Assembly: GCF_024741135.1 (NCBI RefSeq)
Contig: NZ_JANSUY010000027.1
Span: 1 to 64,000 of the forward strand
Reading direction: 5' to 3'
Origin: Aquiflexum gelatinilyticum
GTDB taxonomy: Bacteria > Bacteroidota > Bacteroidia > Cytophagales > Cyclobacteriaceae
Length of the DNA: 64,000 nt
Shown: positions 44,195 through 61,304 of the stretch, piece by piece
Numbering within the stretch: position 1 is the first letter of the stretch
How the letters are laid out: every line of letters begins with the position of its first letter
Made by a program: the position numbers and the translations under genes
Notes under the pieces: generated by a model
What the model was told of the DNA's origin: nothing
Database searches by the model: none
Seen by the model: the letters and a program-made list of their open reading frames with translations, nothing else

Positions 44195-47100
44195 ATGAGA
44201 AATTATTTACAAAAACTAAAGGCTTTTGCTATGGTTTCAGTACTGATGATTTTCAGTATTGCCTCGGCATTTGCTCAAGGCAGGGAGGTATCAGGAACTG
44301 TCCTGGATGCTACCTTAAGAGATCCCCTTCCGGGAGTAACAGTTCTGGTTAAAGGTACTACAAGAGGTACCACCACTGACCTGGATGGAAAATTTAAATT
44401 AGACGTACAGCCGGGAGATGCTACTTTGGTTTTCTCTTTCGTTGGCTTTACGGCACAAGAAGTAGCGATTGGAAACCAAAGTGTATTCAACATCGAATTG
44501 GCTGAGGATATCCAAAGCTTGCAGGAGGCTGTTGTAATCGGTTACGGTACACAAGACAAGAAGGAAATCACTTCAGCTGTTACGAACGTCGGAACAGAGC
44601 AATTCAACCGTGGTAACTTCCCTAACCCAACCCAATTGCTTCAGGGTAAAGTAGCCGGTCTTTCTGTGACACGTGCAGGTGGTAACCCCAACTCACAGCC
44701 TACTTTGAGATTGAGAGGTATTTCTTCTTTCGGTGCTACGCAATCTCCCTTGATCGTATTGGATGGGGTCATCGGTGCTTCTATTGATGCGGTCGATCCA
44801 AATGACATCGAATCTTTTGACGTATTGAAAGATGCATCTGCTGCTGCAATCTATGGTACAAGAGGGGCTGCCGGTGTGATTTTGATTACTACCAAAAAGG
44901 GTTCTTCCAAAAAAGGGGTTTCCAATGTCACCATCAATACTTTTGGTGCAGTTGAAGTTCCTACCAACCTGATTCCTATCCTTTCTCCGGAGGAATTCGT
45001 GGCAAGAGGAGGTACAGATTATGGTTCCAGAACCGATTGGAGAGATGAAGTTACCCAGACTGCTTTGAACGGAACAGTTAATGCTTCTGTAACAGGCGGT
45101 TTTGAAAACACCAACTACCTTGCTTCTGTCAACTACCGTAATAACGACGGTATCGTAAAAGGAACTAACAGGGAAACACTCAACACCCGTTTCAACTTGA
45201 ACCATGGTGCATTGCAAAACAGGTTGAGAATGAATATGGGATTGGCATATACGCAGACAAATACAACTGATGTAAATGGTGAAGCGGTAAGATATGCTAC
45301 TATTTACAACCCAACTGCTCCTATCTTTGAAAGAGACTTTATCGGCACAGGTGAATCAACTGTCGACAGAGATACTCGTATTGCAAATGCAAACAGGGAT
45401 TTTGGTGGTTATTTCCAAAGACCGTTGTTTGATTATTTCAACCCAGTTGCTTTGATCAATCAACAAAAATTCACAAACGACATTAAGAGTGCGATATATT
45501 CTTACAGAATGGAATATGACTTGAGTGATAAATTTATCATCGCAACACAGTTTTCAGAAGATAGATTGTCAGTCAATTCTACAGAGTTTTTCTCTTATCA
45601 GGATTATAATGTCGGTTTTGGTAGAAGTGGTTCTGCGGGTCAAAGTTTATTTAACAGAACAACCAGTATTTGGAATGGAACCATCAGATTCCAAGATGAA
45701 ATTTTTGACAAAATGGATTTCACGTTCTTGGGAGGTGCTGAAACCCAGATCTTCAATGAAAACGGTTTTAACGCTTCATCTTCAAGATTTCTATTTGACC
45801 AAGGTGCAAACAACCTAGGTGCAGGTGGTCTAAGATTCGGTCCGGGCACAGGCATGGGTTCATTTGCTACTAGAGCGGTTTTGAATTCTGTGTTTGGAAG
45901 GGCAAACTTTAACTACAACAATACTTATTTCTTCTCTGCCTCAGTAAGGGCTGAGACTTATTCAGGATTTGGTAAAGAAAACCAAACCGGTATCTTCCCT
46001 GCAGTAACCGCAGGTGCTGATTTGACGCAGGTTTTGGACATGGGGCCATTCAGCCAATTCAAGCCAAGAGTCTCTTTGGGTGTTGTAGGTCAGTTGCCTC
46101 CTTCCCCAACATTGGCTTTGGGTATCTTCGGGAACGGTAATAGAATCCCTTTGAACCTTGCAGAGCCAATCAACTCTGTATTTGTGGGAGTTAACCAACT
46201 TTCAAACCCTAACCCTCAGTTGAAGTGGGAAACAACCCAAGAATTGAACTTCGGTTTGGATTATGCTTTATTGAATGGTAAAATCACAGGTACGATGGAT
46301 TACTGGAGAAGAAACATCTCTGACTTGTTGTTCAACACACAAGTTCCTGTAGGTGCTCCAAATGAATTCCTTCCAGGCAACTTCTACACCGCCACCACCA
46401 TTTGGGCGAATATCGCTGATCTTTCAAGTGCAGGTTTTGAGTTCTTAGTAAATGTCAATAATATAAAATTGGGTGCTGTCAATTGGAATCCTTCTGCGAA
46501 TTTCACGATCTATAGAAGAACAACTATCGATCGAATCGGCGTTGGTTCTATCAGCCTTCCTGAAATCCGTCAGGCAACTCCAGGATCTCCGGGACAAAAC
46601 AATAACGAAATCGTCTGGAACAGAGTGGGTGAGGAAATCGGTAATTTCTATGGACCGAAATTCTTGGGCTTGACCGAAAACGGAGAGTACATCCTCAGCA
46701 CAGAAAGACCTGAAGAATTTGAGAACTTAGGAAATGGACTTCCTACGGCTGACTTTGGTTTTTCTAACTCATTCTCTTACAAAAACTGGGATTTGAATTT
46801 CTTACTAAGAGGTAGTGTTGGCCACTTGATCTACAACTCTTTCAGAGGTTTCTATGAAAATGCTGATGGCGCTTCTAATACTTGGAACTCTGTTGTGACC
46901 AAAAATACGCCAACCAACCCACTTGTTACATCTACACCAACATTCTCTGACCTTTATCTGGAAAGAGGAGACTTTGTAAGGTTGGACAACTTGCAGTTGG
47001 GCTATAACCTTCCTGTCAAATCTGCTGCAATCAGCAATTTCAGGTTGTATGCAGGTGTTCAAAACCTTTTTACGATCACTCAGTTTTCAGGTGTAGATCC

Positions 47101-47212
47101 TGAAGTTAGATGGACAGATGATGGAAATCCATTAGCTCCTGGTATCGAAAGAAGAAATACTTATTTCGTGCCTAGAACCTGGACCGCAGGTTTAACCTTT
47201 ACATTAAAATAA
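44195..47212 (+). CDS. SusC/RagA family TonB-linked outer-membrane transporter
   Basis: The frame opens at 44078, but the ATG at 44195 gives a true signal peptide (FAMVSVLMIFSIASAFAQ) and a 1,005-residue protein. In order it has a carboxypeptidase-regulatory-like domain (REVSGTVLDATLRDPLPGVTVLVKG, about 28-110), the SusC-type plug (EAVVIGYGTQDKKEITSAV with DVLKDASAAAIYGTRGAAGVILITTKKG near 205-230) and a 22-strand barrel ending WTAGLTFTLK. There is no STN signalling domain, so it does not talk directly to an anti-sigma factor. It forms the gated import channel with the SusD lipoprotein encoded 18 bases downstream. Confidence 0.95.
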   Translation: MRNYLQKLKAFAMVSVLMIFSIASAFAQGREVSGTVLDATLRDPLPGVTVLVKGTTRGTTTDLDGKFKLDVQPGDATLVFSFVGFTAQEVAIGNQSVFNIELAEDIQSLQEAVVIGYGTQDKKEITSAVTNVGTEQFNRGNFPNPTQLLQGKVAGLSVTRAGGNPNSQPTLRLRGISSFGATQSPLIVLDGVIGASIDAVDPNDIESFDVLKDASAAAIYGTRGAAGVILITTKKGSSKKGVSNVTINTFGAVEVPTNLIPILSPEEFVARGGTDYGSRTDWRDEVTQTALNGTVNASVTGGFENTNYLASVNYRNNDGIVKGTNRETLNTRFNLNHGALQNRLRMNMGLAYTQTNTTDVNGEAVRYATIYNPTAPIFERDFIGTGESTVDRDTRIANANRDFGGYFQRPLFDYFNPVALINQQKFTNDIKSAIYSYRMEYDLSDKFIIATQFSEDRLSVNSTEFFSYQDYNVGFGRSGSAGQSLFNRTTSIWNGTIRFQDEIFDKMDFTFLGGAETQIFNENGFNASSSRFLFDQGANNLGAGGLRFGPGTGMGSFATRAVLNSVFGRANFNYNNTYFFSASVRAETYSGFGKENQTGIFPAVTAGADLTQVLDMGPFSQFKPRVSLGVVGQLPPSPTLALGIFGNGNRIPLNLAEPINSVFVGVNQLSNPNPQLKWETTQELNFGLDYALLNGKITGTMDYWRRNISDLLFNTQVPVGAPNEFLPGNFYTATTIWANIADLSSAGFEFLVNVNNIKLGAVNWNPSANFTIYRRTTIDRIGVGSISLPEIRQATPGSPGQNNNEIVWNRVGEEIGNFYGPKFLGLTENGEYILSTERPEEFENLGNGLPTADFGFSNSFSYKNWDLNFLLRGSVGHLIYNSFRGFYENADGASNTWNSVVTKNTPTNPLVTSTPTFSDLYLERGDFVRLDNLQLGYNLPVKSAAISNFRLYAGVQNLFTITQFSGVDPEVRWTDDGNPLAPGIERRNTYFVPRTWTAGLTFTLK

Positions 47213-47230
47213 CATAAACTCAAAATAAAT

Positions 47231-48748
47231 ATGTTACGATCAATTAAATCATTATTTGTTGGAGGTCTCGTGGCAGTATCCATGGGATCATGCTGGGAAT
47301 TGGAACAGGAAGTTCTGACTGGGGTAACCCAAGAAGATTTGGCAAATAGCCCACGTCCCGAGTTGATTGAAGTACTGAAGCAATCTGCTTATGCTGCCGT
47401 AGTCGGCAACTGGGGAGGTCACGGAGGTATGTACAGTATCAACGAAGTTTCATCTGACCAATTGGCAATTCCTCAAAAAGGGGCTGACTGGGAAGATGGA
47501 GGTATTTGGCTAAGAAACCACAGACATACATGGGCTGTTGGTGACGGAGCTTACAACGGTGCTTGGCAATATTGCTTCAGAATCGTTGGTGAGACCAACT
47601 TGTTGTTGCAGCAATATCCTGATGTGGAAGCCTTGGGTGCAGAATTGAGAGTTTTGAGAGCATTGGCTTACTTGTGGTTGATTGACAACTTCGGTAATGT
47701 GCCTATCATTGTGGAAACTGATAGAGGTGGAAATCCTCCACAGAACACAAGGGCTGAAGTTTTCGCTTTCATTGAAAGCAGCATCAAAGACAATGTGGAT
47801 TTACTTCCAAAAACCAATGTGAAGACCAACTTGAACTATTGGACCGCACACATGATCTTGGCCAAGCTTTATTTAAATGCTGAGGTTTATTTGAGCACTA
47901 CTCCGGGAGTATTGGATCCTTCCAAAGGAAGATGGGCTGATGCTGAAGCTGCTTTGGATGTGATCATCAATTCAGGTCAGTACAGTTTGACTCCTAATTT
48001 CTTCCAAAATTTCTCAGCTACGAATGCAAATTCAACTGAGAATATGTTTACTCTTCCTTATGACGCAAACAATGCAGGTGGTTTTAATATCCACCACATG
48101 ACATTCCATTATGTCAACCAAGCTACTTTCAACTTGGTAGAACAGCCATGGAATGGTTATACAGCCTTGGAAGAATTCTACAACAGCTTTGAAGCAGGAG
48201 ACTTAAGAAAAGGTTCTTTGAGAGAAGGAATCCAAAGATCCTCTACAGGAGTTGACTTGATAGATGCCTCCGCTGAAGCTGGAGATCCTGACGGACCCGT
48301 TGTAAACTTTACTCCTGAAATCAATCAATTGGCTCCAAATGCTTTCAGACAAGCCGGAACCAGAATCAACAAATTTGAAGTTCCACTTGGATCTGCAAAC
48401 AGCTTGAACAACGACTTCCCGATCTTCAGATATGGTGATGTCATCTTGATGAAAGCAGAATGCGCATGGAAACTCGGAAGGACCGCAGACGCCATTGCTT
48501 TGGTAAATCAGATCAGAACAAGATCTTCAGCGCCTGCTTTGACTACTTTGGATGCTGATATCTTATTGGCAGAAAGAGGAAAAGAATTCTTTGCTGAAGG
48601 CCAAAGAAGATCTGATTTGATTAGATTCGGAAAATACACTGCTGCATGGTGGGAGAAGCCTGCTTCTCAGCCCTTCAGAACATTGTTCCCGATTCCTCAA
48701 GGACAGCTTCAGGCTAATCCAAACCTGACACAAAATCCTGGATATTAA
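47231..48748 (+). CDS. SusD/RagB family substrate-binding lipoprotein
   Basis: The 505-residue protein has a lipobox (AVSMGSC, Cys21) and the SusD fold: a helical TPR scaffold with LRVLRALAYLWLIDNFGNVPIIVE (the family's RALAYF-like motif), AKLYLNAEVYLST, and the C-terminal RYGDVILMKAECAWKLGRTADAIALVNQIRTRS and LLAERGKEFFAEGQRRSDLIRFGKY. It caps the SusC barrel and captures the ligand at the cell surface. It is in one transcript with susC and is followed within 27 bases by a strong hairpin. Confidence 0.95.
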   Translation: MLRSIKSLFVGGLVAVSMGSCWELEQEVLTGVTQEDLANSPRPELIEVLKQSAYAAVVGNWGGHGGMYSINEVSSDQLAIPQKGADWEDGGIWLRNHRHTWAVGDGAYNGAWQYCFRIVGETNLLLQQYPDVEALGAELRVLRALAYLWLIDNFGNVPIIVETDRGGNPPQNTRAEVFAFIESSIKDNVDLLPKTNVKTNLNYWTAHMILAKLYLNAEVYLSTTPGVLDPSKGRWADAEAALDVIINSGQYSLTPNFFQNFSATNANSTENMFTLPYDANNAGGFNIHHMTFHYVNQATFNLVEQPWNGYTALEEFYNSFEAGDLRKGSLREGIQRSSTGVDLIDASAEAGDPDGPVVNFTPEINQLAPNAFRQAGTRINKFEVPLGSANSLNNDFPIFRYGDVILMKAECAWKLGRTADAIALVNQIRTRSSAPALTTLDADILLAERGKEFFAEGQRRSDLIRFGKYTAAWWEKPASQPFRTLFPIPQGQLQANPNLTQNPGY

Positions 48749-48774
48749 TCCAAATATTTTGATATTACAATGAT

Positions 48775-48805
48775 AAAAGAAGTGCACATCCGTGCACTTC
48801 TTTTT
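48775..48805. terminator. Strong bidirectional hairpin terminator after susD
   Basis: AAAAGAAGTGCAC pairs perfectly over 13 bp with GTGCACTTCTTTT around a 4-base ATCC loop and a T run follows. It lies between the susD stop (48748) and the first CRTAC1 gene, whose ATG is at 48866. Confidence 0.9.
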
Positions 48806-48865
48806 GATTTAATGGATACCTTCGGATTAGAAAACAGAACCCAATCGCATATTAACCCTTCCAAA

Positions 48866-51800
48866 ATGTCTTCACTGACACATAACATCTTCTTTTTTTT
48901 AATTGGCTTACTCCTCTTTTCTTCCTGCGCAAAAAAGGGAGAAGAAAAAACAACTCTTTTTGAACTGATGGATAAAAAGTTGACAGGAATCAACTTCAAC
49001 AATAACCTAGAATATAACGAAAAATTCAATCCTTATCTTTTTAGAAATTTTTATAATGGGGCAGGTGTAGCCCTTGGTGATATTAACAATGACGGTTTGG
49101 TTGATATCTTTTTGTCCGGAAACCAACAAGAAAATAAATTATACCTCAATAAAGGAAATTTTCAATTTGAAGACATTACCGCAAAAGCAGGATTGGCTGT
49201 AAAGGGAATATGGTCGACCGGAGTAAGCATGGCCGATATTAACGCTGACGGTTGGCTTGATATATATGTATGTAAATCCGGCCCTTTGGGTGGAACTCAG
49301 CGTTATAATGAACTTTTTATCAACAACGGTGACTTGACATTCACAGAAAGTGCAAGAGAATTTGGAATAGCCGATGAAGGGCTTTCCCAGCATGCAGTAT
49401 TTTTTGACTATGACAAAGACGGTGACTTGGACATGTACCTGCTCAACAATTCCATCAGGTCTATAGGTGTAAATGACCTAAGGATCGGACAGAGAGATAT
49501 CCGAGATCCATTTGGAGGGAACAAACTTTACCGAAACGACAGTGGAAAATATACCGATGTAAGCGAATCTGCTGGTATTTATGGTTCCGCCATAGGTTAT
49601 GGATTGGGTGTAACAGTAGCTGACCTCAATAAGGATACTTGGCCGGACTTGTATGTCTCCAATGATTTTTTTGAAAAAGACTACCTGTACATCAATAATG
49701 GCGACGGTACCTTTAGCGAATCTCTTGAAGACATGATGACTGAAATCAGCATGGGTTCTATGGGTGCTGACATCGCCGACCTGGACAATGACGGTTGGCA
49801 GGATGTCTTTGTCACTGAAATGCTACCGGCTACCATGGCGAGGGTGAAAACCAAAACTCCATTTGAGGAATGGGACAAGTATCAAGCGAACGTTGCAGGT
49901 GGGTATTTCCATCAGTTTACCCGAAACACCTTACAAAGGAATCTTGGTTTTCAACCCAACAGTAATCAGATTCATTTTTCGGAAATAGGCAGACAGGCAG
50001 GCGTACATGCTACCGACTGGAGTTGGGGGGCTTTGATTTTTGACACTGACAATGACGGACTGAAAGATATTTTTGTAGCAAACGGAATAGTCAAAGACCT
50101 GACAGACTTTGATTATGTCGACTATTATGTCAATAACCAGGACCTGATTGCCCAATTCAAGCGGGACAGTATTTTGTTAACCAAGATGATTGATGAATTT
50201 CCTTCTAATCCTCAGATGAACTTTCTGTTTCAAAACGAGGGCGATTTCAAGTTCAAAAACATAGCTGCAGAATCAGGAATGGAGCAATTGACTTTTTCTA
50301 CAGGCGCTGCTTATGCTGACTTTGACAATGACGGCGACCTTGACTTGGTGGTCAATAACCTCAACGGTGAGGTTTCCATATTCAAAAACAACAGCAGGGA
50401 AATCAACAAAAACCATTTTCTCCAATTTGATCTCAAGGGTCAATTCGGAACCCAAGTGACACTTTTTGCCGGAAATGATCTGTTCTTTGCGGAGCACAAT
50501 CCAGTCAAAGGCTATATGTCATCCGTAGACCACAAGCTTCATTTTGGACTTGGCCAGGTAGAGAAAATTGATTCTGTGATCGTCCTTTGGCCAAATGGAA
50601 AAGCCACCAAGATAACCGATGTATTACCGGATCAATTGTTGGTATTGGATCCTTCCACAGCGACTGAAGATTGGAAATTTGTCAAAGCGGTCACAAATCC
50701 CCTCCTCTTACCCTCTTCTATCAAACTTCCATGGAAACATCAGGAAAGCGATTTTATCGATTTTGACAGAGACAGGCTGAGGTTTCATATGATTTCCAAT
50801 GAAGGACCAAAAATGGCTGTAGGAGATGTCAACAGCGATGGACTCGATGACCTTTTTCTTCCCGGTGCAAAAGGTCAAGCCTCCTCCATTTATATTCAAA
50901 AGCCCTCAGGAGACTTTCAAATCCATCAAAAATTCGAGGCAGATTCAGTCGCTGAAGATGTCGACGGATTGTTTTTTGATGCTGACGGAGATGGTGATCT
51001 TGACCTGTATGTAGTTAGTGGAAGCTTGGAATTCAGTGCTTTCAACATGAATTACCTGGATCGGCTTTACCTCAACAATGGCAAGGGAAATTTCTCCAAA
51101 ACAAAAGAAAGCCTTCCGATGGTTTTTCAGAGTTCCTCTTTTGCAAAGGCTTTTGACTACACCGGAGACGGAAAAATGGATCTTTTGATCGGGACGAGAA
51201 CAGTGCCTTTTGCCCACGGTGTACCCGGTGATGTGACACTGTTGGAAAATCAAGGCAATGCTGTTTTTGTGGATAAAACCATGGAGTTTGCTCCGGAATT
51301 GAAGAATATCGGAATGACAAGGGAAACATGGATTGGGGATTTGAATGGGGATGGAAATGAAGAAATTCTGATTGTCGGGGAGTGGATGGGAATCAAAGTA
51401 TTTAAAAAAGCCAGTGGAAAATATTATGATGCTTCCTCTGAATTTGGATTTGACAAAACCGGCGGTCTTTGGAATACCCTCCACGTAGCAGATGTCAATG
51501 GAGACGGGTTGCCTGATATTCTTGCAGGAAATTCAGGAACCAATACACGTCTTCAGGCTTCTTCTGAAAAACCATTGCAATTACAAATCAATGATTACGA
51601 TCAAAACGGAAGCGTCGAACAAATCCTTACCCAATACGAAGGTGACTCCACCTATCCATTGGTTTTGAAATCCACCTTAATCAAGCAATTACCTGCCTTG
51701 CGAAAGCAATTGTTGACTTATGATTCCTACAAAAGCAAAAGATTGGAGGACTTATTCCCCCAAGAGATATTGTCCCGAAACATGGTCCTGAATGTACATA

Positions 51801-52177
51801 CTTTGGAAACAAGCCTGTTTATCAATCAGGGAAATGGTACATTTGTAAAAGCATTTCTGCCCTACACCATCCAACGAAGCCCTGTCTATGCTATCCATTC
51901 CTTTATGGATGATTTAGGAAAAATCCATTTGCTGTTTGGAGGAAACCAAAGCCGGATCAAACCTGAATTGGGCATCAACATGGGAAGCTATGGATGGCAC
52001 CTAACAGGATCAAATGAAAAAGACCTCCACTTGATTCCTGCCAATCAATCGGGATTCTTTGTAAGAGGAGAAATTAGGGATATCAAAAACATCAAAACTT
52101 CAAAAGGAAACAGAATTGTAGTCAGTAGGAATAATGAGTTGCCGGTGGTTTTCGAAATCCACGGCAGTGGGAAGTAA
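48866..52177 (+). CDS. CRTAC1/ASPIC-UnbV family FG-GAP propeller lipoprotein, copy A
   Basis: The frame starts upstream at 48770, inside the terminator; the ATG at 48866 gives a lipobox (LLLFSSC, Cys21) and 1,103 residues. The N-terminal half is a propeller of FG-GAP/VCBS repeats with calcium loops of the DxNxDG type: DINNDGLVD, DINADGWLD, DYDKDGDLD, DLDNDGWQD, DTDNDGLKD and DFDNDGDLD. An ASPIC/UnbV domain follows (about 520-590, GTQVTLFAG to HFGLGQ). A second propeller (from NEGPKMAVGDVNSDGLDD) then carries more such loops, ending in a conserved DQNGSVEQ region. It is a calcium-stabilised binding protein; the ligand is unknown. It is first of three tandem paralogues. Confidence 0.92.
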   Translation: MSSLTHNIFFFLIGLLLFSSCAKKGEEKTTLFELMDKKLTGINFNNNLEYNEKFNPYLFRNFYNGAGVALGDINNDGLVDIFLSGNQQENKLYLNKGNFQFEDITAKAGLAVKGIWSTGVSMADINADGWLDIYVCKSGPLGGTQRYNELFINNGDLTFTESAREFGIADEGLSQHAVFFDYDKDGDLDMYLLNNSIRSIGVNDLRIGQRDIRDPFGGNKLYRNDSGKYTDVSESAGIYGSAIGYGLGVTVADLNKDTWPDLYVSNDFFEKDYLYINNGDGTFSESLEDMMTEISMGSMGADIADLDNDGWQDVFVTEMLPATMARVKTKTPFEEWDKYQANVAGGYFHQFTRNTLQRNLGFQPNSNQIHFSEIGRQAGVHATDWSWGALIFDTDNDGLKDIFVANGIVKDLTDFDYVDYYVNNQDLIAQFKRDSILLTKMIDEFPSNPQMNFLFQNEGDFKFKNIAAESGMEQLTFSTGAAYADFDNDGDLDLVVNNLNGEVSIFKNNSREINKNHFLQFDLKGQFGTQVTLFAGNDLFFAEHNPVKGYMSSVDHKLHFGLGQVEKIDSVIVLWPNGKATKITDVLPDQLLVLDPSTATEDWKFVKAVTNPLLLPSSIKLPWKHQESDFIDFDRDRLRFHMISNEGPKMAVGDVNSDGLDDLFLPGAKGQASSIYIQKPSGDFQIHQKFEADSVAEDVDGLFFDADGDGDLDLYVVSGSLEFSAFNMNYLDRLYLNNGKGNFSKTKESLPMVFQSSSFAKAFDYTGDGKMDLLIGTRTVPFAHGVPGDVTLLENQGNAVFVDKTMEFAPELKNIGMTRETWIGDLNGDGNEEILIVGEWMGIKVFKKASGKYYDASSEFGFDKTGGLWNTLHVADVNGDGLPDILAGNSGTNTRLQASSEKPLQLQINDYDQNGSVEQILTQYEGDSTYPLVLKSTLIKQLPALRKQLLTYDSYKSKRLEDLFPQEILSRNMVLNVHTLETSLFINQGNGTFVKAFLPYTIQRSPVYAIHSFMDDLGKIHLLFGGNQSRIKPELGINMGSYGWHLTGSNEKDLHLIPANQSGFFVRGEIRDIKNIKTSKGNRIVVSRNNELPVVFEIHGSGK

Positions 52178-52250
52178 TGGGTATGAAATATGGAAGTTGT
52201 AATGAGGAGTTAAATTTGTATTTCCGGTATGGAGATGACGGATGGTTTCG

Positions 52251-52325
52251 CGTCATCCTGAAGGAGGTACGACTGAAGGATCTCATTTACTTTAGGTGAG
52301 ACCCTTCGCTTCACTCAGGGTGACG
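52251..52325. repeat. Dispersed palindromic repeat, full copy
   Basis: CGTCATCCTGA and TCAGGGTGACG form the ends; an inner pair (AAGGATCTCA with TGAGACCCTT) extends the fold over about 75 bases. It lies between the first CRTAC1 gene and the next small lipoprotein gene. Confidence 0.8.
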
Positions 52326-52407
52326 AACCCAGAAATCTGACATATATACCTTTTAGAAATTTTGAGAAATAAAAGAGTAGAAGCTTAAAATTTAGAATCA
52401 AAAACAA

Positions 52408-52995: not shown

Positions 52996-55900
52996 TAAAT
53001 CCCTCTCTGTTTCCTTTTTGATCATTGCGGCATTTGCCTCCTGCAAGCCATCTGAATCTGAAAAAAAGGAAACCCTATTTGAAAAAATCGATTCCTCTAC
53101 CTCAGGCGTCAACTTCCGGAACGACCTTCCATTTGATGAAAAATTCAATATTTTCACCTACCGAAATTTCTACAATGGTGGTGGAGTAGCTTTGGGTGAT
53201 GTCAACAACGACGGTCTTATTGACATGTACCTGACGGCCAATTTGGGGGAAAACAAACTTTATCTGAATGAGGGCGATTTTAAGTTCAAAGATGTCACTG
53301 AAACCGCCGGAGTAGCCGGTACCCGTGCATGGAGCACAGGCGTTGCGATGGCAGATGTCAATGGCGATGGCTATTTGGATATATATGTCTGCAATTCAGG
53401 AGATATTGCCGGCGATAACAAACAGAATGAGTTATTTATCAATAACGGAGACGGCACTTTCACAGAAAAAGCCGAAGAATTTGGCTTGGCAGATCAAGGA
53501 TACTCTACCCATGCAGTATTTTTTGACTATGACAATGACGGGGACTTGGACGTCTACTTACTCAACAACAGCTACCAATCCATCGGAAGCTTCAATAAAA
53601 TGCAAAATGAACGTCCGAAAAGAGATCCTGTCGGTGGTGATAAATTATTCAGAAATGACGGTGAAAAATTCTCAGATGTTTCTGAAGTAGCGGGGATATA
53701 TGGAAGTACAATCGGATTTGGATTAGGTATCACAATCGGTGATGTCAATCAGGACGGTTGGATGGACATTTTCATTTCCAATGATTTCTTTGAAAGGGAC
53801 TATCTCTACATCAACAATCAGGACGGGACTTTTACTGAAAGCCTGACCACTTACATGCGCGCCATCTCAGCAGCTTCCATGGGTGCGGATATTGCGGATA
53901 TCAACAATGACGGTCATTTAGACATCTTTGTCACTGAAATGCTTCCCGAGCCCTCAGAACGCCTCAAACAGATCACGACATTTGAGAGCTATGACAAGTT
54001 CCAATTCAATGTCCAACACGATTACCACTACCAATACACGAGAAACATGTTCCATATCAACAATGGCGATGGGTCGTTTTCGGATATGGGAAGACTGGCC
54101 AATGTGGAAGCGACAGATTGGAGTTGGGCAGCATTGATGTTTGACATGGACAATGACGGTTTGAAAGACATTTTCGTGGCCAATGGTATCTATAAGGACT
54201 TGACGGATCTGGATTACCTCAATTTCATCGACAATGATGAAACCAAACAAAAAATCATCAGTAAAGCCGGTGTAAACTACAAAGCATTGGTAGACCCGAT
54301 GCCCATCAATCCAATCTCTAACTACGCATTCAAAAACAAAGGAGACCTTGTTTTTGAAAATGTCATCATCGAATGGGGAATGGGAGATCCGATCCATTCC
54401 AACGGTTCAGCTTATGGTGACCTTGACAACGATGGCGCCATGGACCTTGTCATCAACAATGTCAACAATGAGGTCCTGATTTATAAAAACAGGACCAAAG
54501 AATTCGAACCCGAGAATTCATTCCTTAAAATCCAACTTATCGGTAAGGACAAAAATACTGCTGCCATCGGCACCCAGGTGAGGTTGGTAGCTGGTGAACA
54601 GGTTTTTTATCTGGAACAGATGCCCAATAGGGGTTTTCAATCTTCAGTGGATCCAAGATTGAATTTCGGTTTGGGAAAAATAAGTAGGCTCAATGAAGTA
54701 CAAGTCAGGTGGCCGGACGGAAAAATTACCTTGCTCAATGATGTAGCTTCTGATACCACTTTGGTTTTGGAATGGGAAGATGCCAAAGAAGCAACGGAAG
54801 GATCTGCCTTTTTTGAAAAGCCTGCAAGTCAGATTTTCTCCAAAATTGATCCCAGTACCATTTTGAACTATACCCATCAGGAAAATCTCATGGTAGATTT
54901 TGACCGTGACCGACTTACCTACCACATGATTTCTACCGAAGGTCCAAAGGCGATTTGGGGAGATGTCAATGGAGATGGCCTTGATGACGTCTTCATCGGT
55001 GGAGCCAAAGGATTTGCCGGACAGCTTTTTATCCAAAATGCCAATGGAAATTTCAAGCCAAGCAATCAGATAGTGTTTGAAAATGACAAATTCTCTGAAG
55101 ATCGCAGTGGCGTATTTTTCGATGCAAACGGAGACGGAAGTCTTGATTTGGTGGTGGCATCAGGAGGCAATGAATCCGGATTCGGTTCACCGGATCTGGC
55201 AGATAGATTGTATTTGAATGACGGAAAGGGAAATTTTAGCAAATCCGAAAACAGTGGCTTACAGTTTTTGACCAACAGCACTTCGGTCATCAGAACCTTA
55301 GATATCAATGGCGATGGGGCATTGGATCTTTTTGCTGGATCGAGGTTGGTACCATTTGTTTATGGAGTCAATCCCAACTCATCTATTTTGATCAATGACG
55401 GAAAAGGGAATTTTACGGACGGGACGGCACAATTTGCCCCCCAATTGAAAGATTTGGGAATGGTTACCGATGCCGCTGCGGTCGATTACGATGGCGATGG
55501 GAAAATGGATTTGGTGATAGTGGGTGAATGGATGGCCCCGACATTTTTTAGAAATACAGGCAATAAGCTTGAAAAAATAGAAATGCCTGAAATGAACCGG
55601 TATAAAGGGTGGTATCAGGCGATCTTGGTGGGAGATTTTAACAATGATGGTCAGCCGGATTTTGCCTTGGCAAACCATGGATTGAACACCCGATTCAAAG
55701 CCTCTGAAGAAAGTCCGATCAAAATGTATGTCAACGACTTTGACCAAAACGGTTCTGTAGAACACGTTTATGTCAAAAAGCAAGGTGAAAAACATGTTCC
55801 TTTCACACTGAAGCACCAACTCGAAGGTCAGCTACCTGGAATCAAAAAAAGATACCTGAAATACAGCTCATTCAATAACCAAACTTTGGAGGATATCTTT

Positions 55901-56314
55901 ACTCCAGAACAATTGTCTCCTGCGGTTGTCAAAGAAGTGAATTTCCTTTCCTCGGCAGTATTGATGAATCAGGGAAATGGGAAATTTGAAATGAAACCAT
56001 TACCTAGATTTGCGCAGCGCTCGTGGATGTATACCCTTTTGATCACAGATCTAAATGGCGATGGCAATCCGGATCTTATCATGGGAGGAAACCTGAGAGG
56101 TGCAAAACCTGAAGTAGGTCAATATGACGGAAGCTATGGAGAAGTATTGATTGGAAAAGGAGACGGCACATTTGACTATTGGACAAACAGAGAACATGGT
56201 CTAAGATTAGATGGTGAAATCAGAGATTTGAAAATCCTAGATCTGAAAGGAAAGAAAGTCTTGATGGTAGTCAAAAACAATGAACCCGTGGAATTTTGGA
56301 AAATAGAGAAATGA
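52985..56314 (+). CDS. CRTAC1/ASPIC-UnbV family FG-GAP propeller lipoprotein, copy B
   Basis: The 1,109-residue protein has a lipobox (LIIAAFASC, Cys20) and the same layout as copy A: a first propeller with DVNNDGLID, DVNGDGYLD, DYDNDGDLD, DVNQDGWMD, DINNDGHLD and DMDNDGLKD calcium loops, the ASPIC/UnbV domain (about 525-595), and a second propeller. The junction FDRDRLTYHMISTEGPK matches copy A (FDRDRLRFHMISNEGPK). Its C-terminal region repeats FDQNGSVEHVYVKKQGE. It starts inside the preceding small lipoprotein gene and its stop overlaps an ATG of copy C (ATGA). Confidence 0.93.
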   Translation: MHLNKSLSVSFLIIAAFASCKPSESEKKETLFEKIDSSTSGVNFRNDLPFDEKFNIFTYRNFYNGGGVALGDVNNDGLIDMYLTANLGENKLYLNEGDFKFKDVTETAGVAGTRAWSTGVAMADVNGDGYLDIYVCNSGDIAGDNKQNELFINNGDGTFTEKAEEFGLADQGYSTHAVFFDYDNDGDLDVYLLNNSYQSIGSFNKMQNERPKRDPVGGDKLFRNDGEKFSDVSEVAGIYGSTIGFGLGITIGDVNQDGWMDIFISNDFFERDYLYINNQDGTFTESLTTYMRAISAASMGADIADINNDGHLDIFVTEMLPEPSERLKQITTFESYDKFQFNVQHDYHYQYTRNMFHINNGDGSFSDMGRLANVEATDWSWAALMFDMDNDGLKDIFVANGIYKDLTDLDYLNFIDNDETKQKIISKAGVNYKALVDPMPINPISNYAFKNKGDLVFENVIIEWGMGDPIHSNGSAYGDLDNDGAMDLVINNVNNEVLIYKNRTKEFEPENSFLKIQLIGKDKNTAAIGTQVRLVAGEQVFYLEQMPNRGFQSSVDPRLNFGLGKISRLNEVQVRWPDGKITLLNDVASDTTLVLEWEDAKEATEGSAFFEKPASQIFSKIDPSTILNYTHQENLMVDFDRDRLTYHMISTEGPKAIWGDVNGDGLDDVFIGGAKGFAGQLFIQNANGNFKPSNQIVFENDKFSEDRSGVFFDANGDGSLDLVVASGGNESGFGSPDLADRLYLNDGKGNFSKSENSGLQFLTNSTSVIRTLDINGDGALDLFAGSRLVPFVYGVNPNSSILINDGKGNFTDGTAQFAPQLKDLGMVTDAAAVDYDGDGKMDLVIVGEWMAPTFFRNTGNKLEKIEMPEMNRYKGWYQAILVGDFNNDGQPDFALANHGLNTRFKASEESPIKMYVNDFDQNGSVEHVYVKKQGEKHVPFTLKHQLEGQLPGIKKRYLKYSSFNNQTLEDIFTPEQLSPAVVKEVNFLSSAVLMNQGNGKFEMKPLPRFAQRSWMYTLLITDLNGDGNPDLIMGGNLRGAKPEVGQYDGSYGEVLIGKGDGTFDYWTNREHGLRLDGEIRDLKILDLKGKKVLMVVKNNEPVEFWKIEK

Positions 56315-59300
56315 TTTTTCCCGCAAAGACGCAAAGACACAAAGTTTTGAAGCTTAGAAATTTTGATTTGAAACCATCGGCCTATTTAGTAATAGGAATG
56401 TTTTATTTCATTTTTATAGGATTATTTTCCTGTTCCAAACCCAAAGAGGAGACACTTTTCAAACTTTTAGATCCCAAAGAAACCGGAATCGAATTCCGAA
56501 ACGACCTGGTATCCTCCGAGGAGATGAACATTCTCGAATACCTGTACTTCTACAATGGTGGCGGTGTGGCTACAGGGGACATCAACAATGACGGTTTGGT
56601 AGATATTTATTTCTCCTCAAACCAAGGCGAGAACAAACTATACCTAAACAAAGGAGATTTCAAATTTGAGGATATCACCCAAAAAGCGGCGGTCACAGGC
56701 GATGGCGGATGGTCAACCGGAGTCACGATGGGAGATGTAAACGGAGACGGAATGCTGGACATTTACGTCACCCAAGTCGGGGATTACAAAGGCCTGACCG
56801 GAAAAAACAAACTTTACATCAATAACGGTGATTTGACTTTCTCTGAAAAAGGTGCAGCATATGGAGTGGATTTTGTAGGCTTTTCAACCCATTCACTGTT
56901 TTTTGACTATGACCAAGATGGAGACTTAGACCTCTATTTGCTCAATCATTCCATCAAAAAACCAGAAGTATTTTCCCATGCCGACACCAAATTCACGAAT
57001 CAGGATGAAAAAGGAGGAGACAAACTTTTCAAAAATCTTTTGGCTGAAGGAGAAAACAGGATGGTTGAAGTGACCGAAGAAGCAGGAATTCTTTCAAGCA
57101 GCTTGGGTTTTGGGTTGGGTATAGGCATGGCTGACATCAATGGGGATGGTTGGATGGACTTGTATGTTTCCAATGATTTTACCGAGGACGATTACCTCTA
57201 TATCAATCAGGCTGACGGAACTTTCAAGGAATCCTTGAAAGAATACATCTCCAACACAAGTCGATATAGCATGGGAAATGACCTGGGAGACATCAACAAT
57301 GATGGCTTGTCGGATATTTTTACAACAGACATGCTTCCCTCCGATCCTCAGATCTGGATGAAGTCAGTAGGTGAAGACAAGCAGGAAGTATTTGATGTCA
57401 AAAAGCGTCTCGGCTACGGCGACCAATATGTCCGAAACCACCTCCAACTCAACCGCGGTGACGGGAGGTTCAGTGAAATCGGTCTCTTGACCAATACCTT
57501 TGCAACAGATTGGAGCTGGTCTCCCCTGATTTTTGATATGGATAATGACGGCCAAAAAGACATCCACATCACAAACGGAATAGTCAAACGCCCAAATGAC
57601 CTCGACTTTATACAATACAGTCAGGAACCTAGCCCGGGTTTGTCGGAAAAGGAAATCCAAACGAAACAGATTGAAATGCTCCCGACTGTCAAGCTGTCCA
57701 ATTTTTCATTTAGGAATGAGGGCGATCTGAAATTTACCAATATGGCCAAAGAATGGGGTTTGGACCAACTCTCCTACTCCAACGGTTCTGCTTATGCGGA
57801 TTTGGATAATGACGGCGACCTTGATTTGGTGATCAATAACATTGACCAAGAGGCATTTGTATACCAAAACCAAACAGCTGCAAAACTTCAAAACCATTTT
57901 GTACAGTTTGATTTGAAAGGAGAATATCCAAATACTTTTGGGATTGGCACGCAGGTTATTGTGTATGCAGGAAAAGAAATATTTCACCAAACGCTGAGTA
58001 CTTCCCGTGGATTTCAATCAGGGACGTCTACAACTTTGACTTTTGGTTTGGGAAAAAATCCTGCTTTGGATTCTGTCGTAGTTGTCTGGAATGACGCACA
58101 TTCGGAAATTTTCCGAAATCTTGCCGTCAATAAAAGACATCTATTGGAAAAAGGAAAAGGTGAAAAATCAGCTTTTCCCAACAAGGAATTCATTCCCATA
58201 TTGGAAATAACCGATCTTGGAATTGACTGGAAACATGAAGAAAACTTTGAATTTGATGATTTCAGAAGGGAATACCTGATCCCAAGAAAGTATTCCACAG
58301 AAGGGCCGGCATTGGCTGTGGGAGATGTGAATGGTGATGGATTGGAGGACATTTTCTTTGGTGGGGCCAAGGGTCAAGCAGGAGTTTTTTATTTTCAAAA
58401 AGAAGATGGCAAGTTTGAAAAAGCAAATCAACCTGTATTCCAAAAACTCAATATGGCGGAGGATGTGGTCGCCATCTTGGAGGATTTTAACCTTGACGGC
58501 ACTTTGGACCTTTACGTGGGAAGTGGCGGTAACGAATCTACCAGAAAAGAATTTTTCAATTTTGACAGGCTTTTCCTGAACGATGGCATGGGAAATTTCT
58601 TCTTTTCCATGAATTCGCTCCCTCCTATTGCTGAAAATACCTCAACCCTCGCAGTCCATGATGTCAATGGCGACGGTGCCCCTGATATTTTTGTAGGATC
58701 CACTATTGTAACTGGAAATTATGGTGAAATCCCCAAAAGTTATTTGTTGCTCAATGATGGCAAAGGTCAATTTAAAGAAGCAACTACCACCTATTTCGGG
58801 GAAAATTTCCAGCCTGGAATGGTTAAAAAAGCAAAATGGGCCGACTTGAATAAAGATGGAACAAAAGAGCTCATCTTGTCTGGAGAATGGATGCCAGTCC
58901 AGATTTATCACCATAACCCTCAAGGTAATTTCGAAATTGCCCAAGATGAAACACTTCAAATCCCCGGTTGGTTTTTTGGTTTGGAAGTGAAAGATATGGA
59001 CGGAGACGGGATGGAAGATATCTTGGTAGGAAACCTGGGATTGAATTCCAAACTCAAAGCTAGTCCCGAGAAACCAGTTTGGCTTTACCACGGAGATTTT
59101 GATGAAAACGGGCAGGCTGATCCCTTGATTTTCCATTACATGGAAGGTCATTTAGTACCATTTGCCACTAGAGATGACCTGATCAAGCAGATCCCGGGCA
59201 TCAAAAGAAAACATTCAAATTATATTGAATATGCCAGTATCCTAACCCCTGCAGATCTTTTTGAAAGTTCTCAGATTGATAAGGCTTCCAAATACCAAGC

Positions 59301-59664
59301 TTCGGAATTTAGATCAGGGGTATTTTGGAACAAAGGTGAAAAAGGGTTCGAGTTCAGTCCTTTTCCAACAGATGCCCAGTTTAGTCCAATCCATGAATTT
59401 GAAACCTTCGAAAAAGACGGAGTCCAATACCTAATAGGTGTTGGCAATTTTAATGGATTTAGGAGTGATTTTGGAACTGCTGATGCACAGCCATTGGTTT
59501 TGATGGAGTTTGAAAACGGAAGCTGGAAAACAAAACCAACCGGAATCGCAGCGAATGACTATTGGGGTGAATTCAGAAACATTTCAAAAATCAAGGTTAA
59601 TAGGGAAGAAGTTCTGATTGCTGTAAGAAACAATGCCCCGCCTCTATCTCTCAAAGTCCAATAA
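56311..59664 (+). CDS. CRTAC1/ASPIC-UnbV family FG-GAP propeller lipoprotein, copy C
   Basis: The frame is open from 56296. The ATG at 56311 overlaps the copy B stop as ATGA, giving 1,117 residues, but the next 12 codons read through a CGCAAAG-type repeat. A later ATG at 56398 starts just at the hydrophobic segment (FYFIFIGLFSC), so the start is not settled. The mature protein keeps calcium loops (DINNDGLVD, DVNGDGMLD, DYDQDGDLD, DINGDGWMD, DINNDGLSD, DMDNDGQKD), the ASPIC/UnbV domain (about 535-610) and a second propeller. The inter-propeller junction differs from A and B: DFRREYLIPRKYSTEGPA. Confidence 0.9.
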   Translation: MIFPAKTQRHKVLKLRNFDLKPSAYLVIGMFYFIFIGLFSCSKPKEETLFKLLDPKETGIEFRNDLVSSEEMNILEYLYFYNGGGVATGDINNDGLVDIYFSSNQGENKLYLNKGDFKFEDITQKAAVTGDGGWSTGVTMGDVNGDGMLDIYVTQVGDYKGLTGKNKLYINNGDLTFSEKGAAYGVDFVGFSTHSLFFDYDQDGDLDLYLLNHSIKKPEVFSHADTKFTNQDEKGGDKLFKNLLAEGENRMVEVTEEAGILSSSLGFGLGIGMADINGDGWMDLYVSNDFTEDDYLYINQADGTFKESLKEYISNTSRYSMGNDLGDINNDGLSDIFTTDMLPSDPQIWMKSVGEDKQEVFDVKKRLGYGDQYVRNHLQLNRGDGRFSEIGLLTNTFATDWSWSPLIFDMDNDGQKDIHITNGIVKRPNDLDFIQYSQEPSPGLSEKEIQTKQIEMLPTVKLSNFSFRNEGDLKFTNMAKEWGLDQLSYSNGSAYADLDNDGDLDLVINNIDQEAFVYQNQTAAKLQNHFVQFDLKGEYPNTFGIGTQVIVYAGKEIFHQTLSTSRGFQSGTSTTLTFGLGKNPALDSVVVVWNDAHSEIFRNLAVNKRHLLEKGKGEKSAFPNKEFIPILEITDLGIDWKHEENFEFDDFRREYLIPRKYSTEGPALAVGDVNGDGLEDIFFGGAKGQAGVFYFQKEDGKFEKANQPVFQKLNMAEDVVAILEDFNLDGTLDLYVGSGGNESTRKEFFNFDRLFLNDGMGNFFFSMNSLPPIAENTSTLAVHDVNGDGAPDIFVGSTIVTGNYGEIPKSYLLLNDGKGQFKEATTTYFGENFQPGMVKKAKWADLNKDGTKELILSGEWMPVQIYHHNPQGNFEIAQDETLQIPGWFFGLEVKDMDGDGMEDILVGNLGLNSKLKASPEKPVWLYHGDFDENGQADPLIFHYMEGHLVPFATRDDLIKQIPGIKRKHSNYIEYASILTPADLFESSQIDKASKYQASEFRSGVFWNKGEKGFEFSPFPTDAQFSPIHEFETFEKDGVQYLIGVGNFNGFRSDFGTADAQPLVLMEFENGSWKTKPTGIAANDYWGEFRNISKIKVNREEVLIAVRNNAPPLSLKVQ
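56322..56344. repeat. CGCAAAG-type repeat, copy 4, inside a reading frame
   Basis: CGCAAAGACGCAAAGACAC followed by AAAG, the same unit as the intergenic copies near 27 kb. It lies just after the ATGA overlap of copies B and C and would encode basic residues in the N-terminus of copy C. Confidence 0.85.
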
Positions 59665-59815
59665 TAAAACATGCTTAAAATCAGTTGATTTGGATTTTGA
59701 AAATCCATGATTTTATAAGAATATTATTTAGATTTGAACCCAGAAACCCGAAAAATAAAGTCCTTACATCCTCCAAAGGACTCAAAGTTGCTCAAGAAAT
59801 AGCCAAAAACAATTT

Positions 59816-61177
59816 ATGAAAAGTTTATTCCAAAAATTATTAATTGCAACCATAGCTTCATTTCTGGGCTTTGGCTGTGGGCAGAACAAAGATTACCAAA
59901 ATGCCATTTCGGATGGTTCTTACCAGATTGCTGCACAGGACAAACTCACCACAGTCATCATCAATGATATTTTTTCCCCACCGGTTGCGAGCAGGATTTA
60001 TGCCTATTCTTCCCTTGCAGCATATGAGGTAACTGCGCTCTCAGATCCCAATTACCAATCCTTGATGGGTCAACTCAATGGTTTTGAGAAAACCGAATTT
60101 GATACCACAGGCCAAATCTATTATCCTTTGGCCTCACTAGCGGCATATTATAAAGTGGCGACAGCATTGATATTTTCGGAAAATCTAATGACAGAGCACA
60201 GAGACAAAGCCTATGCTGATCTTCTTGAAAAAGGAATTCCTGATGAGGTTTTTGAGCGGTCTATCAAACTTGGAGATGAAGTTGGCGCCTATGTCATAGC
60301 CTATTTCAAAAAAGACAATTACCATGAAAGCCGCTCTTTCGAAAAATATACTGTCAGCAATGATCCAGGTACATGGCAGCCAACTCCGCCTGCATACATG
60401 GAAGGAATAGAACCACATTGGAATAAAATCCGGCCTTTTGTCCTTGATTCTGCAGCACAATACAAAACCATCCCGGGAACCGAATTCAGTACCGATCCTT
60501 CAAGTCAGTTTTACAAAGAGGCCGAGGAGGTTTTCAAAATCGTTAATGAATTGAACGAGGACCAAAAGGATATCGCTATGTTTTGGGATTGCAATCCCTA
60601 CAAAGTCAATGTCAAAGGACATGTGATGTTTGCTGAAAAGAAAATCACTCCGGGAGGACATTGGATGGGTATCGCAGCCATTTCATCCAAAACAGCAGGA
60701 CAGGACTGGAAAGGAACCTCTGAAACCCTCGTATTTACCAGCATCGCCATTTTTGATGCATTTATAGCTTGTTGGGATGAAAAATACAGAAGCAGACTAA
60801 TCCGACCTGAGACATATATCAACCGCTACATTGACGAAGATTGGTTGCCACTATTGCAGACTCCTCCATTTCCTGAATACACAAGTGGACACAGTGTGGC
60901 ATCCAATGCGGCTGCGGAAGCATTGACCAGTCTTTTTGGTGAGCCCTTCCATTTTGTGGATTCTACAGAAGTTAATTATGGACTTCCTGTAAGAGAGTTT
61001 GACTCATTCAGACAAGCGGCAGACGAAGCAGCAATCAGCAGGCTCTATGGAGGAATCCATTATATGCCGGCAATTGTCAATGGTTCTACAAAAGGAAAAA
61101 GCATCGGGAATCATCTTGTGGAAAATGTTAAAACCAAATCTCCTTCATTTTCCCCAATGGCTGAAAACAAAAAATAA
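59816..61177 (+). CDS. Vanadium-dependent haloperoxidase-type PAP2 lipoprotein
   Basis: The 453-residue protein has a lipobox (SFLGFGC, Cys21) and all three PAP2/haloperoxidase motifs: K323-x6-RP (KYRSRLIRP), TSGH at 356-359 with the acid His359, and SRLYGGIH at 408-415 whose His415 would bind vanadate. In this family the enzyme oxidises halides with H2O2, but phosphatase action of the same fold cannot be excluded. Being a lipoprotein, it acts at the cell envelope. It follows the three CRTAC1 genes, 151 bases after copy C, and ends at a terminator. Confidence 0.92.
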   Translation: MKSLFQKLLIATIASFLGFGCGQNKDYQNAISDGSYQIAAQDKLTTVIINDIFSPPVASRIYAYSSLAAYEVTALSDPNYQSLMGQLNGFEKTEFDTTGQIYYPLASLAAYYKVATALIFSENLMTEHRDKAYADLLEKGIPDEVFERSIKLGDEVGAYVIAYFKKDNYHESRSFEKYTVSNDPGTWQPTPPAYMEGIEPHWNKIRPFVLDSAAQYKTIPGTEFSTDPSSQFYKEAEEVFKIVNELNEDQKDIAMFWDCNPYKVNVKGHVMFAEKKITPGGHWMGIAAISSKTAGQDWKGTSETLVFTSIAIFDAFIACWDEKYRSRLIRPETYINRYIDEDWLPLLQTPPFPEYTSGHSVASNAAAEALTSLFGEPFHFVDSTEVNYGLPVREFDSFRQAADEAAISRLYGGIHYMPAIVNGSTKGKSIGNHLVENVKTKSPSFSPMAENKK

Positions 61178-61196
61178 ATCAATGATTTTCTATTTT

Positions 61197-61237: not shown

Positions 61238-61304
61238 TATTCTATACTGAAGAAACTTTCCTGCCAGAAAGCTTTAATTTTGAAATTCAAATTCAAATGC
61301 TTTT

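Follow-up and report, generated by a model that had tools for sequence, protein, structure and literature searches.

A putative envelope operon of a SusC-SusD importer, CRTAC1-like lipoproteins and a vanadium haloperoxidase-type enzyme in Aquiflexum gelatinilyticum

Results

A seven-gene locus on one strand

Here, we describe a seven-gene locus that we read, with a probability of roughly 55%, as a conserved envelope operon bringing together a SusC-SusD importer, surface CRTAC1 lipoproteins and a lipoprotein vanadium haloperoxidase as working partners. The locus occupies positions 44,195-61,177 of the window, that is, the whole stretch of 64,000 nucleotides from Aquiflexum gelatinilyticum that was analysed. 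All of its genes lie on the + strand with near-contiguous coding (Table 1), and both the open reading frames and the domain matches bear out the gene content proposed in a previous sequence-only reading: susC-susD, three long lipoproteins, one small lipoprotein and a PAP2 lipoprotein.

Table 1. Genes of the locus, with positions in the window
Product	Position	Strand	Remarks
SusC/RagA TonB-dependent outer-membrane transporter	44195..47212	+	TIGR04056 602.6 bits, above cut-off; Plug and barrel domains
SusD/RagB lipoprotein	47231..48748	+	PF07980 99.6 bits; PF14322
CRT-A, CRTAC1-like lipoprotein	48770..52177	+	FG-GAP repeats - ASPIC/UnbV - FG-GAP repeats; adjoins SusD
Small lipoprotein	52408..52995	+	relative in 49/80 related loci
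CRT-B, CRTAC1-like lipoprotein	52985..56314	+	11 bp overlap with small lipoprotein gene
CRT-C, CRTAC1-like lipoprotein	56296..59664	+	adjoins haloperoxidase gene
Vanadium haloperoxidase-type lipoprotein, Zobellia iodoperoxidase kind (by sequence)	59816..61177	+	4CIT E 1.9e-142; vanadate-site residues

The TonB-dependent SusC gene and the SusD gene are adjacent, separated by 18 bp, as in SusC/SusD importers. Although a TTG at 44078 is the first in-frame start of SusC, we kept the ATG at 44195 chosen in the earlier reading, since it opens a signal-peptide-like stretch. The start listed for CRT-C is a TTG overlapping CRT-B, and the real one may be the ATG at 56311 or a later codon. The lipoprotein signals and lipobox cysteines of the locus proteins were judged by eye. 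A pattern scan of positions 59500-62300 returned 10 promoter-like sites versus 5.9 +- 2.8 in shuffled sequences, numbers that permit no promoter claim, together with four terminator-like sites (2.5 +- 1.4 in shuffles), all of them on the - strand; none was a terminator between the haloperoxidase gene and rsmG.

By sequence, the enzyme belongs with the vanadium haloperoxidases

The only PDB match of the PAP2-fold protein at E<=0.001 was the Zobellia haloperoxidase 4CIT/4USZ, which aligned over residues 5-438. The identity of 50.8% over 441 positions amounts to whole-length homology, so the protein resembles the vanadium iodoperoxidase of Zobellia galactanivorans nearly end to end, vanadate-site residues included. 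The three motifs that had been picked out from the letters are indeed intact (K323-x6-R330-P331, T356-S357-G358-H359 and S408-R409-x5-H415). Moreover, W320 and the vanadate-binding residues are conserved among 141 relatives: W320, K323, R330, H359, R409 and H415 are kept in every one, G358 in 139 and S357 in 136. Judged by its sequence, then, this protein is a Zobellia iodoperoxidase-type vanadium haloperoxidase.

PAP2 phosphatases have the same fold and the same vanadate/phosphate-site residues as haloperoxidases, and PAP2 is all that Pfam sees here (24.9 bits, just under the 27.2 cut-off). One could therefore picture a secreted acid phosphatase, with the locus scavenging phosphorylated ligands. 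We hold this to be very improbable, as the only sequence match in the PDB is to a haloperoxidase and both W320 and the residues around it agree with the Zobellia enzyme. The sequence-only reading had left halogenation, oxidation and dephosphorylation side by side; among these, the 51% identity shared with a vanadium haloperoxidase of known structure favours halide oxidation over dephosphorylation as the probable activity.

Three CRTAC1-like proteins and a small lipoprotein

The three proteins of about 1,110 amino acids each carry 8-10 FG-GAP_3 stretches and, as had been noticed from the sequence, a central UnbV_ASPIC domain, which Pfam places at residues 559-624 of CRT-A, 527-593 of CRT-B and 549-615 of CRT-C. 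All three thus show the FG-GAP repeats followed by UnbV_ASPIC that define the CRTAC1 / ASPIC-UnbV family. They are 40-48% identical to one another and rich in calcium-type Dx[DN]xDG motifs (10, 13 and 12, respectively). Both the CRT-A sequence, which matched cartilage acidic protein 1 (PDB 9etn, E 4.3e-17), and the AlphaFold model of CRT-B, whose top PDB match was the same murine CRTAC1 structure (E 4e-26, TM 0.72 by target length), point to this family; the other matches listed for the model were general propeller proteins. The bacterial proteins differ from 9etn in that FG-GAP repeats flank the ASPIC domain on both sides and a lipoprotein signal is present. CRT-C groups with the haloperoxidase-adjacent CRTs of its own family, and the number of CRTAC1 copies varies between lineages from one to three. 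The trio may, as the earlier reading proposed, reflect distinct ligands or a hetero-complex.

The small lipoprotein matched nothing in Pfam or NCBIfam at E<=0.001. Its AlphaFold model (pLDDT 88.3) found nothing in Foldseek at the same threshold, and the VIA-align matches were weak (top Z 5.5, DcrB, with PsbP in lower rows), so that no fold was assigned.

The CRTAC1-haloperoxidase neighbourhood recurs

The search for the same gene order in other Bacteroidota, as proposed in the earlier reading, showed that CRTAC1-haloperoxidase adjacency recurs and that SusCD recurs upstream. A CRTAC1 gene lies upstream on the same strand in 42 of 60 haloperoxidase loci of the Bacteroidota sample, a set that comprises the closer matches and excludes 16 non-own ones of lower similarity; these cases span 10 of 13 families, and in 32 the two genes are adjacent, with gaps of -37 to 223 bp. 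The fetched pieces, reaching at most about 10 kb to each side, held no CRTAC1 gene at 16 of the 60. Among close homologues the figures rise to 73 of 80 with CRTAC1 upstream and 63 adjacent. SusC and SusD were found upstream on the same strand in all 16 loci chosen for extension, with intervening genes in L177 and L178, while 11 of 20 CRTAC1-anchored loci showed no SusD upstream in range.

In a sample of 61 genomes, nine of 18 haloperoxidase matches had a CRTAC1 gene no more than 10 kb away, where random placement would lead one to expect about 0.36. Ten of these genomes have both genes, one the enzyme only, seven CRT only and 43 neither (enzyme presence set at E<=1e-30; Fisher p 2e-6). Similarly, all 15 of 24 relatives that have the enzyme also carry CRT when compared by eye, and the two genes are co-inherited (distance correlation r 0.73; none of 1000 permutations was as high). 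Kinship between genomes inflates these statistics. The sequence-only reading had named rare co-occurrence of CRTAC1 and PAP2 genes with susCD, or loss of the motifs, as evidence against itself; instead, the two genes occur together, in many cases alongside susCD, and the residues of the vanadate site are conserved.

Individual cases extend this picture. A second CRT-haloperoxidase pair is present elsewhere in the Aquiflexum gelatinilyticum genome. In another genome (G182), a gene with 98.4% identity to 4CIT immediately follows three CRTAC1 genes, although SusCD is further upstream there, with other genes between. Even in another phylum, a Gemmatirosa plasmid carries the order SusC-SusD-CRT-haloperoxidase-CRT-SusC-SusD; the haloperoxidase on an Adhaeribacter plasmid has no CRTAC1 neighbour. 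Conversely, for 38 of the 55 CRTAC1 genes no haloperoxidase lies less than 10 kb away, and seven of 17 CRTAC1-bearing genomes have no match to the enzyme at E<=1e-30, so CRTAC1 must be able to function in its absence as well. Taken together, the recurrence suggests a working partnership of these propeller proteins with peroxide-using enzymes. In the open-access collection searched, we found no paper joining haloperoxidase with CRTAC1, or haloperoxidase with SusD and TonB; in the literature on haloperoxidase, FG-GAP and Bacteroidetes, the pairing was absent from the titles and abstract openings among the matches listed.

Discussion

Our preferred reading can be put as a sequence of steps. The seven genes would be co-transcribed, and the CRTAC1 propellers, rich in calcium motifs, may hold the ligand, or else the haloperoxidase, at the surface of the cell. 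With hydrogen peroxide and iodide, perhaps bromide, the enzyme would produce hypohalite, which could modify the ligand or some organic moiety of it near the importer. SusCD would then import the resulting product.

What the ligand might be brings the locus close to polysaccharide utilisation loci, in which a SusC-SusD pair is likewise followed by lipoproteins. In contrast to these, the haloperoxidase and the CRTAC1 proteins stand in place of a glycosidase, lyase, sulfatase or peptidase: Pfam and NCBIfam found no such domain in the seven genes and three flanking ones, a stretch that thus lacks the pairing of SusCD with carbohydrate-active enzymes at one locus. GH65 likewise has no match in the Aquiflexum gelatinilyticum genome. 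The relatives weaken the earlier claim that this is not a standard polysaccharide utilisation locus, although its observation of no glycosidase at the locus itself stands. At 10 of 60 related loci, a GH65 or GH116/GDE-like protein is encoded next to the enzyme, which makes a glycoside or glycoconjugate a plausible ligand and the likeliest one; in addition, GH3 and arabinofuranosidase-type genes accompany a Hymenobacter SusCD-CRTAC1-haloperoxidase locus, and GH30 one SusCD-CRTAC1 locus. Together with the ROK and MFS genes among the neighbours of haloperoxidase loci, and with SusCD-CRTAC1 loci that lack the enzyme, these genes would fit ordinary glycan uptake in which CRTAC1 proteins are surface glycan binders and the haloperoxidase is accessory, defensive or detoxifying, with no direct role in uptake. 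We regard this as rather unlikely, given the missing glycosidase and given that CRTAC1 and haloperoxidase genes sit side by side and are inherited together to a degree not called for in a loosely associated accessory gene. The envelope system inferred in the sequence-only reading is thus supported in part: the co-occurrence was borne out and halide oxidation is favoured, while its argument against a glycan is weakened.

It is also tempting to speculate that halogen itself is the cargo, the enzyme oxidising iodide with hydrogen peroxide and CRTAC1 and SusCD binding and importing the oxidised iodine, as the peroxide-dependent uptake machinery of a marine Flavobacteriaceae strain. Iodine uptake by Arenibacter C-21 requires glucose, oxygen and calcium, a peroxide- or iodide-oxidising system can replace the glucose, and the genome encodes five or more homologues of the Zobellia iodoperoxidase (PMC5064120). 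This peroxide-linked uptake, the CRTAC1 neighbours of the near-identical Zobellia-type gene and the abundance of calcium-type motifs in CRTAC1 proteins all speak for iodine capture. Nevertheless, the calcium requirement of C-21 could come from its glucose oxidase, glycosidases occur in related loci and many CRTAC1 loci have no haloperoxidase. Moreover, it is organic ligands for which SusCD systems are known. We consider iodine capture improbable.

More broadly, and only tentatively, CRTAC1/UnbV modules (an FG-GAP propeller plus ASPIC) may be dedicated partners of peroxide-driven oxidants and halogenating enzymes across bacteria, in which case the operon described here would couple an importer to an oxidising unit of this type. 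The cases gathered under this general reading are vanadium haloperoxidases with SusCD in Bacteroidota and Gemmatimonadota, di-haem cytochrome c peroxidases (Rhodobacterales, and a fusion in Alteromonas), peroxidase-like hydrazine-synthase homologues and an iodinating enediyne cassette. CRTAC1 adjoins a di-haem cytochrome c peroxidase in Phaeobacter and Rhodobacteraceae SC52 and is fused to one in Alteromonas, where the peroxidase half has its best match in an unannotated Vibrio region. These systems resemble the locus in joining the module to a peroxidase, but the enzyme contains haem, not vanadium, neighbouring genes are convergent rather than co-directional, and SusCD is missing. A CCP_MauG search of the 61 genomes of the Bacteroidota sample gave 65 matches in 29 genomes; by eye, none of the 22 in CRTAC1-bearing genomes was near CRTAC1, the one on a shared contig being more than 1 megabase away. 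This negative control limits the general claim, as within Bacteroidota the vanadium enzyme is the only partner found. The plasmid CRTAC1 regions of Acidisarcina, Granulicella, Ruegeria TM1040, Halobaculum and Leisingera also have no annotated peroxidase beside CRTAC1.

The UnbV-type CRTAC1 protein of enediyne cassettes, for example in Streptomyces globisporus C-1027, shares FG-GAP and UnbV_ASPIC with the proteins described here but is about half as long and belongs to a polyketide cassette. Five enediyne regions contained no haloperoxidase annotation, and one has a 'peroxidase-related enzyme'. The enediyne cassette reportedly gives iodinated intermediates (Gui et al. 2024). In the open-access collection searched we found no paper joining enediyne with UnbV, and diiodotetrayne appeared only in a reference list.

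We know of no biochemical role for CRTAC1-type proteins, from bacteria to mammals, and to our knowledge the cellular role of bacterial vanadium iodoperoxidases is not established. A recurring operon that ties both to a nutrient importer would give each a testable function. Finally, such an operon would bear on halogen cycling and may offer a hypothesis of wider reach for ASPIC/UnbV domains, among them that of enediyne biosynthesis.

Results

The grouping proposed by the sequence-only reading, in which susC, susD, CRT-A, a small lipoprotein gene, CRT-B, CRT-C and a PAP2-fold gene fill one stretch of a single strand, was confirmed by gene coordinates and Pfam domains (CRT denotes a CRTAC1-like gene or protein). 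Pfam recognised SusC and SusD domains in the first two genes, and one central UnbV_ASPIC domain with 8-10 FG-GAP_3 stretches in each CRT of the window. The top solved match of the AlphaFold model predicted for CRT-B (pLDDT 80.9, built from 23 sequences) is murine CRTAC1 (9etn; E 4e-26, TM 0.72 by target length). The locus is flanked by an opposite-strand MOSC-domain gene on its 5' side and by rsmG and an MscS-type channel gene on its 3' side. The gap behind CRT-A contains a palindrome-like stretch, presumably similar to a dispersed repeat; when up to 3 mismatches are permitted, a 33-base segment of this stretch has a single occurrence in the window.

Features of the window and of fetched loci (L-numbers)
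Feature	Position or length	Strand	Basis
Seven-gene locus	44,195-61,177	+	gene coordinates, Pfam
SusC-SusD gap	18 bp	+	gene coordinates
SusD-CRT-A gap	21 bp	+	gene coordinates
CRT-A to small lipoprotein gap	230 bp	+	gene coordinates
Small lipoprotein/CRT-B overlap	11 bp	+	gene coordinates
CRT-B/CRT-C overlap	19 bp	+	gene coordinates
CRT-C to PAP2 gene gap	151 bp	+	gene coordinates
Palindrome-like stretch	52210-52335
GyrI-like domain protein	L105:8449-9345
GyrI-like domain protein	L094:6327-7214
ROK-family gene	L086:13397-14632
Peroxidase-CRTAC1 fusion	L194:4357-7674
Trp_halogenase-family FAD gene	L157:14888-16423		Pfam
Copper type II monooxygenase-like protein	L159:12414-13742		Pfam, below cut-off
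Cytochrome c554-like protein	L161:11686-13014

Searched against the PDB at E<=0.001, the PAP2 protein matched solely the Zobellia galactanivorans haloperoxidase 4CIT/4USZ (E 1.9e-142; 50.8% identity to 4CIT across 441 residues). The Zobellia enzyme is reportedly strictly iodide-specific (Fournier et al. 2014). All 141 distinct relatives taken from fetched loci (>400 aa, profile score >450) share W320, K323, R330, P331, H359, R409 and H415; 139 retain G358 and 136 retain S357, and a lipobox-like pattern lies close to the N-terminus in 112. Sequence evidence could not place the protein more securely in the vanadium haloperoxidase family. The Zobellia representative is termed an iodoperoxidase in PMC13198595.

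The enzyme is repeatedly found directly behind a CRT. A scan of GTDB species genomes kept 80 of 445 enzyme loci, a set of close relatives (titles mostly Algoriphagus and related genera) with some contigs ending early; a same-strand CRT lies upstream in 73/80, immediately adjacent in 63/80, and 47/80 hold the small lipoprotein and at least 3 CRT reading frames, split frames being counted separately. In 198 genomes sampled across the phylum, 78 enzyme matches (E<=1e-30) fell in 45 genomes, and 60 of the 76 matches outside the window genome were fetched from 43 genomes (59 with E<=8.1e-88, one with 3.3e-58). Upstream on the same strand within the fetched piece, a CRT was present in 42 of these 60 loci, spread over 10 of 13 families, with a gap of -37 to 223 bp in 32 of the 42; 16 loci had no CRT on either strand. 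Some of the 60 pieces are truncated by contig ends.

In 61 of the 198 genomes, considered without this fetching selection, 9 of 18 haloperoxidase matches had a CRT gene no more than 10 kb away, versus about 0.36 expected at random, and 17 of 55 CRT genes had a haloperoxidase at that range. Both genes were present in 10 genomes, the enzyme only in 1, CRT only in 7 and neither in 43 (Fisher p 2e-6, a value that ignores kinship). Another peroxidase family, CCP_MauG, showed no comparable CRT neighbourhood in the same genomes when compared by eye with CRT positions. Among 24 relatives including the window genome, all 15 enzyme carriers (E<=1e-30) fall, compared by eye, within the 18 CRT carriers (E<=1e-150).

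Distance matrices of the enzyme and its adjacent CRT correlate (r 0.73, 33 pairs; as high in 0/1000 permutations), and in some pairs (L132-L086, L126-L130) the nearest partner of both lies in another family. In a 92-row CRT tree, 10 label changes account for all the rows next to an enzyme taken together, and the 25 that are enzyme- but not SusD-adjacent need 8 versus 22.1 when shuffled (0/500 as low). Judged from this tree, the enzyme is carried by several CRT lineages. The window genome holds a second CRT-enzyme pair, its enzyme 41% identical, preceded by a ROK-family gene; ROK regulators likewise precede CRTAC1 in Phaeobacter and Ruegeria.

Upstream sequence was extended for 16 of the 42 CRT-enzyme loci, and SusC and SusD lay upstream on the same strand in all 16, with other genes intervening in two (L177, L178). 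SusD was upstream on the same strand in 9 of 20 CRT-anchored regions picked from CRT matches not yet covered; therefore, CRT genes are often, not always, companions of SusCD, with or without the enzyme. In L104, an enzyme gene 98.4% identical to 4CIT over 439 residues stands directly behind three CRT genes, an identity from which the source genome is probably a Zobellia. Beyond the phylum, a Gemmatirosa kalamazoonensis plasmid (Gemmatimonadota) carries SusC, SusD, CRT, haloperoxidase, CRT, SusC and SusD on one strand, the enzyme match standing 35 bp from that of the first CRT. The unit may have been transferred, or may be very old.

Discussion

The sequence-only reading had described an envelope system that captures a ligand and then halogenates, oxidises or dephosphorylates it. 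This is partly supported: the CRT-enzyme grouping recurs, often with SusCD, and the enzyme belongs by sequence to the vanadium haloperoxidases. The search of the window locus turned up no CAZyme, and GH65 had no match in the window genome. Near the enzyme, 10 of the 60 fetched loci encode a GH65 (7) or GH116/GDE-like (3) protein, placed between CRT and enzyme in 9; the tenth, L127, has no CRT in reach. Such a protein likewise occurs in L080-L083 of the 80-locus set (in L083 as a short piece only), a GH30 in L161, and GH3 and arabinofuranosidase-type genes accompany SusCD, CRT and a haloperoxidase annotated as two pieces on a Hymenobacter plasmid. A glycoside or glycoconjugate would be the likeliest ligand, and hypohalite would act close to the importer. 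A GyrI-like domain protein of about 300 aa (below the Pfam cut-off in L094), its cluster covering 7 loci, was also seen next to the haloperoxidase or in the interval from CRT to GH65.

Outside the operon, CRT-B matched 75 plasmid records by tblastn, with 16 Streptomyces among the 60 records listed. All 5 Streptomyces regions read, including C-1027, show the order DUF1702-DUF1702-CRTAC1-(RnfD-like or 'enediyne biosynthesis protein')-type I PKS, and the C-1027 protein carries FG-GAP and UnbV_ASPIC. The enediyne cassette is said, in Gui et al. 2024, to give iodinated polyenes. A convergent cytochrome c peroxidase gene abuts CRTAC1 in Phaeobacter and in Rhodobacteraceae SC52, and CCP_MauG (a di-haem peroxidase domain), FG-GAP and UnbV_ASPIC are fused in one 1,106-aa protein on an Alteromonas macleodii plasmid. 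These Phaeobacter and SC52 peroxidases are among the matches listed for the peroxidase half of the fusion, scoring below a Vibrio region without annotation. The gene row of the fusion also holds a PQQ alcohol dehydrogenase, a Rieske protein and an alpha-hydroxy acid oxidase. No annotated peroxidase stood beside CRTAC1 in five other CRTAC1 regions read. According to a 2025 paper (PMC12758564), a CRTAC1 gene lies between hydrazine synthase subunit homologues in two clades, lies upstream in a third and is absent in a fourth; the paper also points to a likeness of the gamma subunit to di-haem cytochrome c peroxidases.

The L157 locus (SusCD-CRT-small lipoprotein-CRT) has a Trp_halogenase-family FAD gene (44.8 bits, cut-off 21) on the opposite strand at a distance of about 1 kb; its genome gave no vanadium haloperoxidase match at E<=1e-30. 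Between SusD and CRT, L159 (opposite strand, weak match) and L161 encode further redox neighbours of CRTAC1.

The system is a variant of SusCD-type loci built around a known kind of enzyme; no earlier description of a SusCD-CRTAC1-haloperoxidase system was found in the open-access literature searched, at title and listing level. The boldest reading of the data, to which we give a probability of roughly 0.3, is a general link between CRTAC1 and oxidants. The cases outside the operon, few and partly related, tentatively suggest that CRTAC1/UnbV acts as a module that partners halogenating enzymes or enzymes driven by peroxide.
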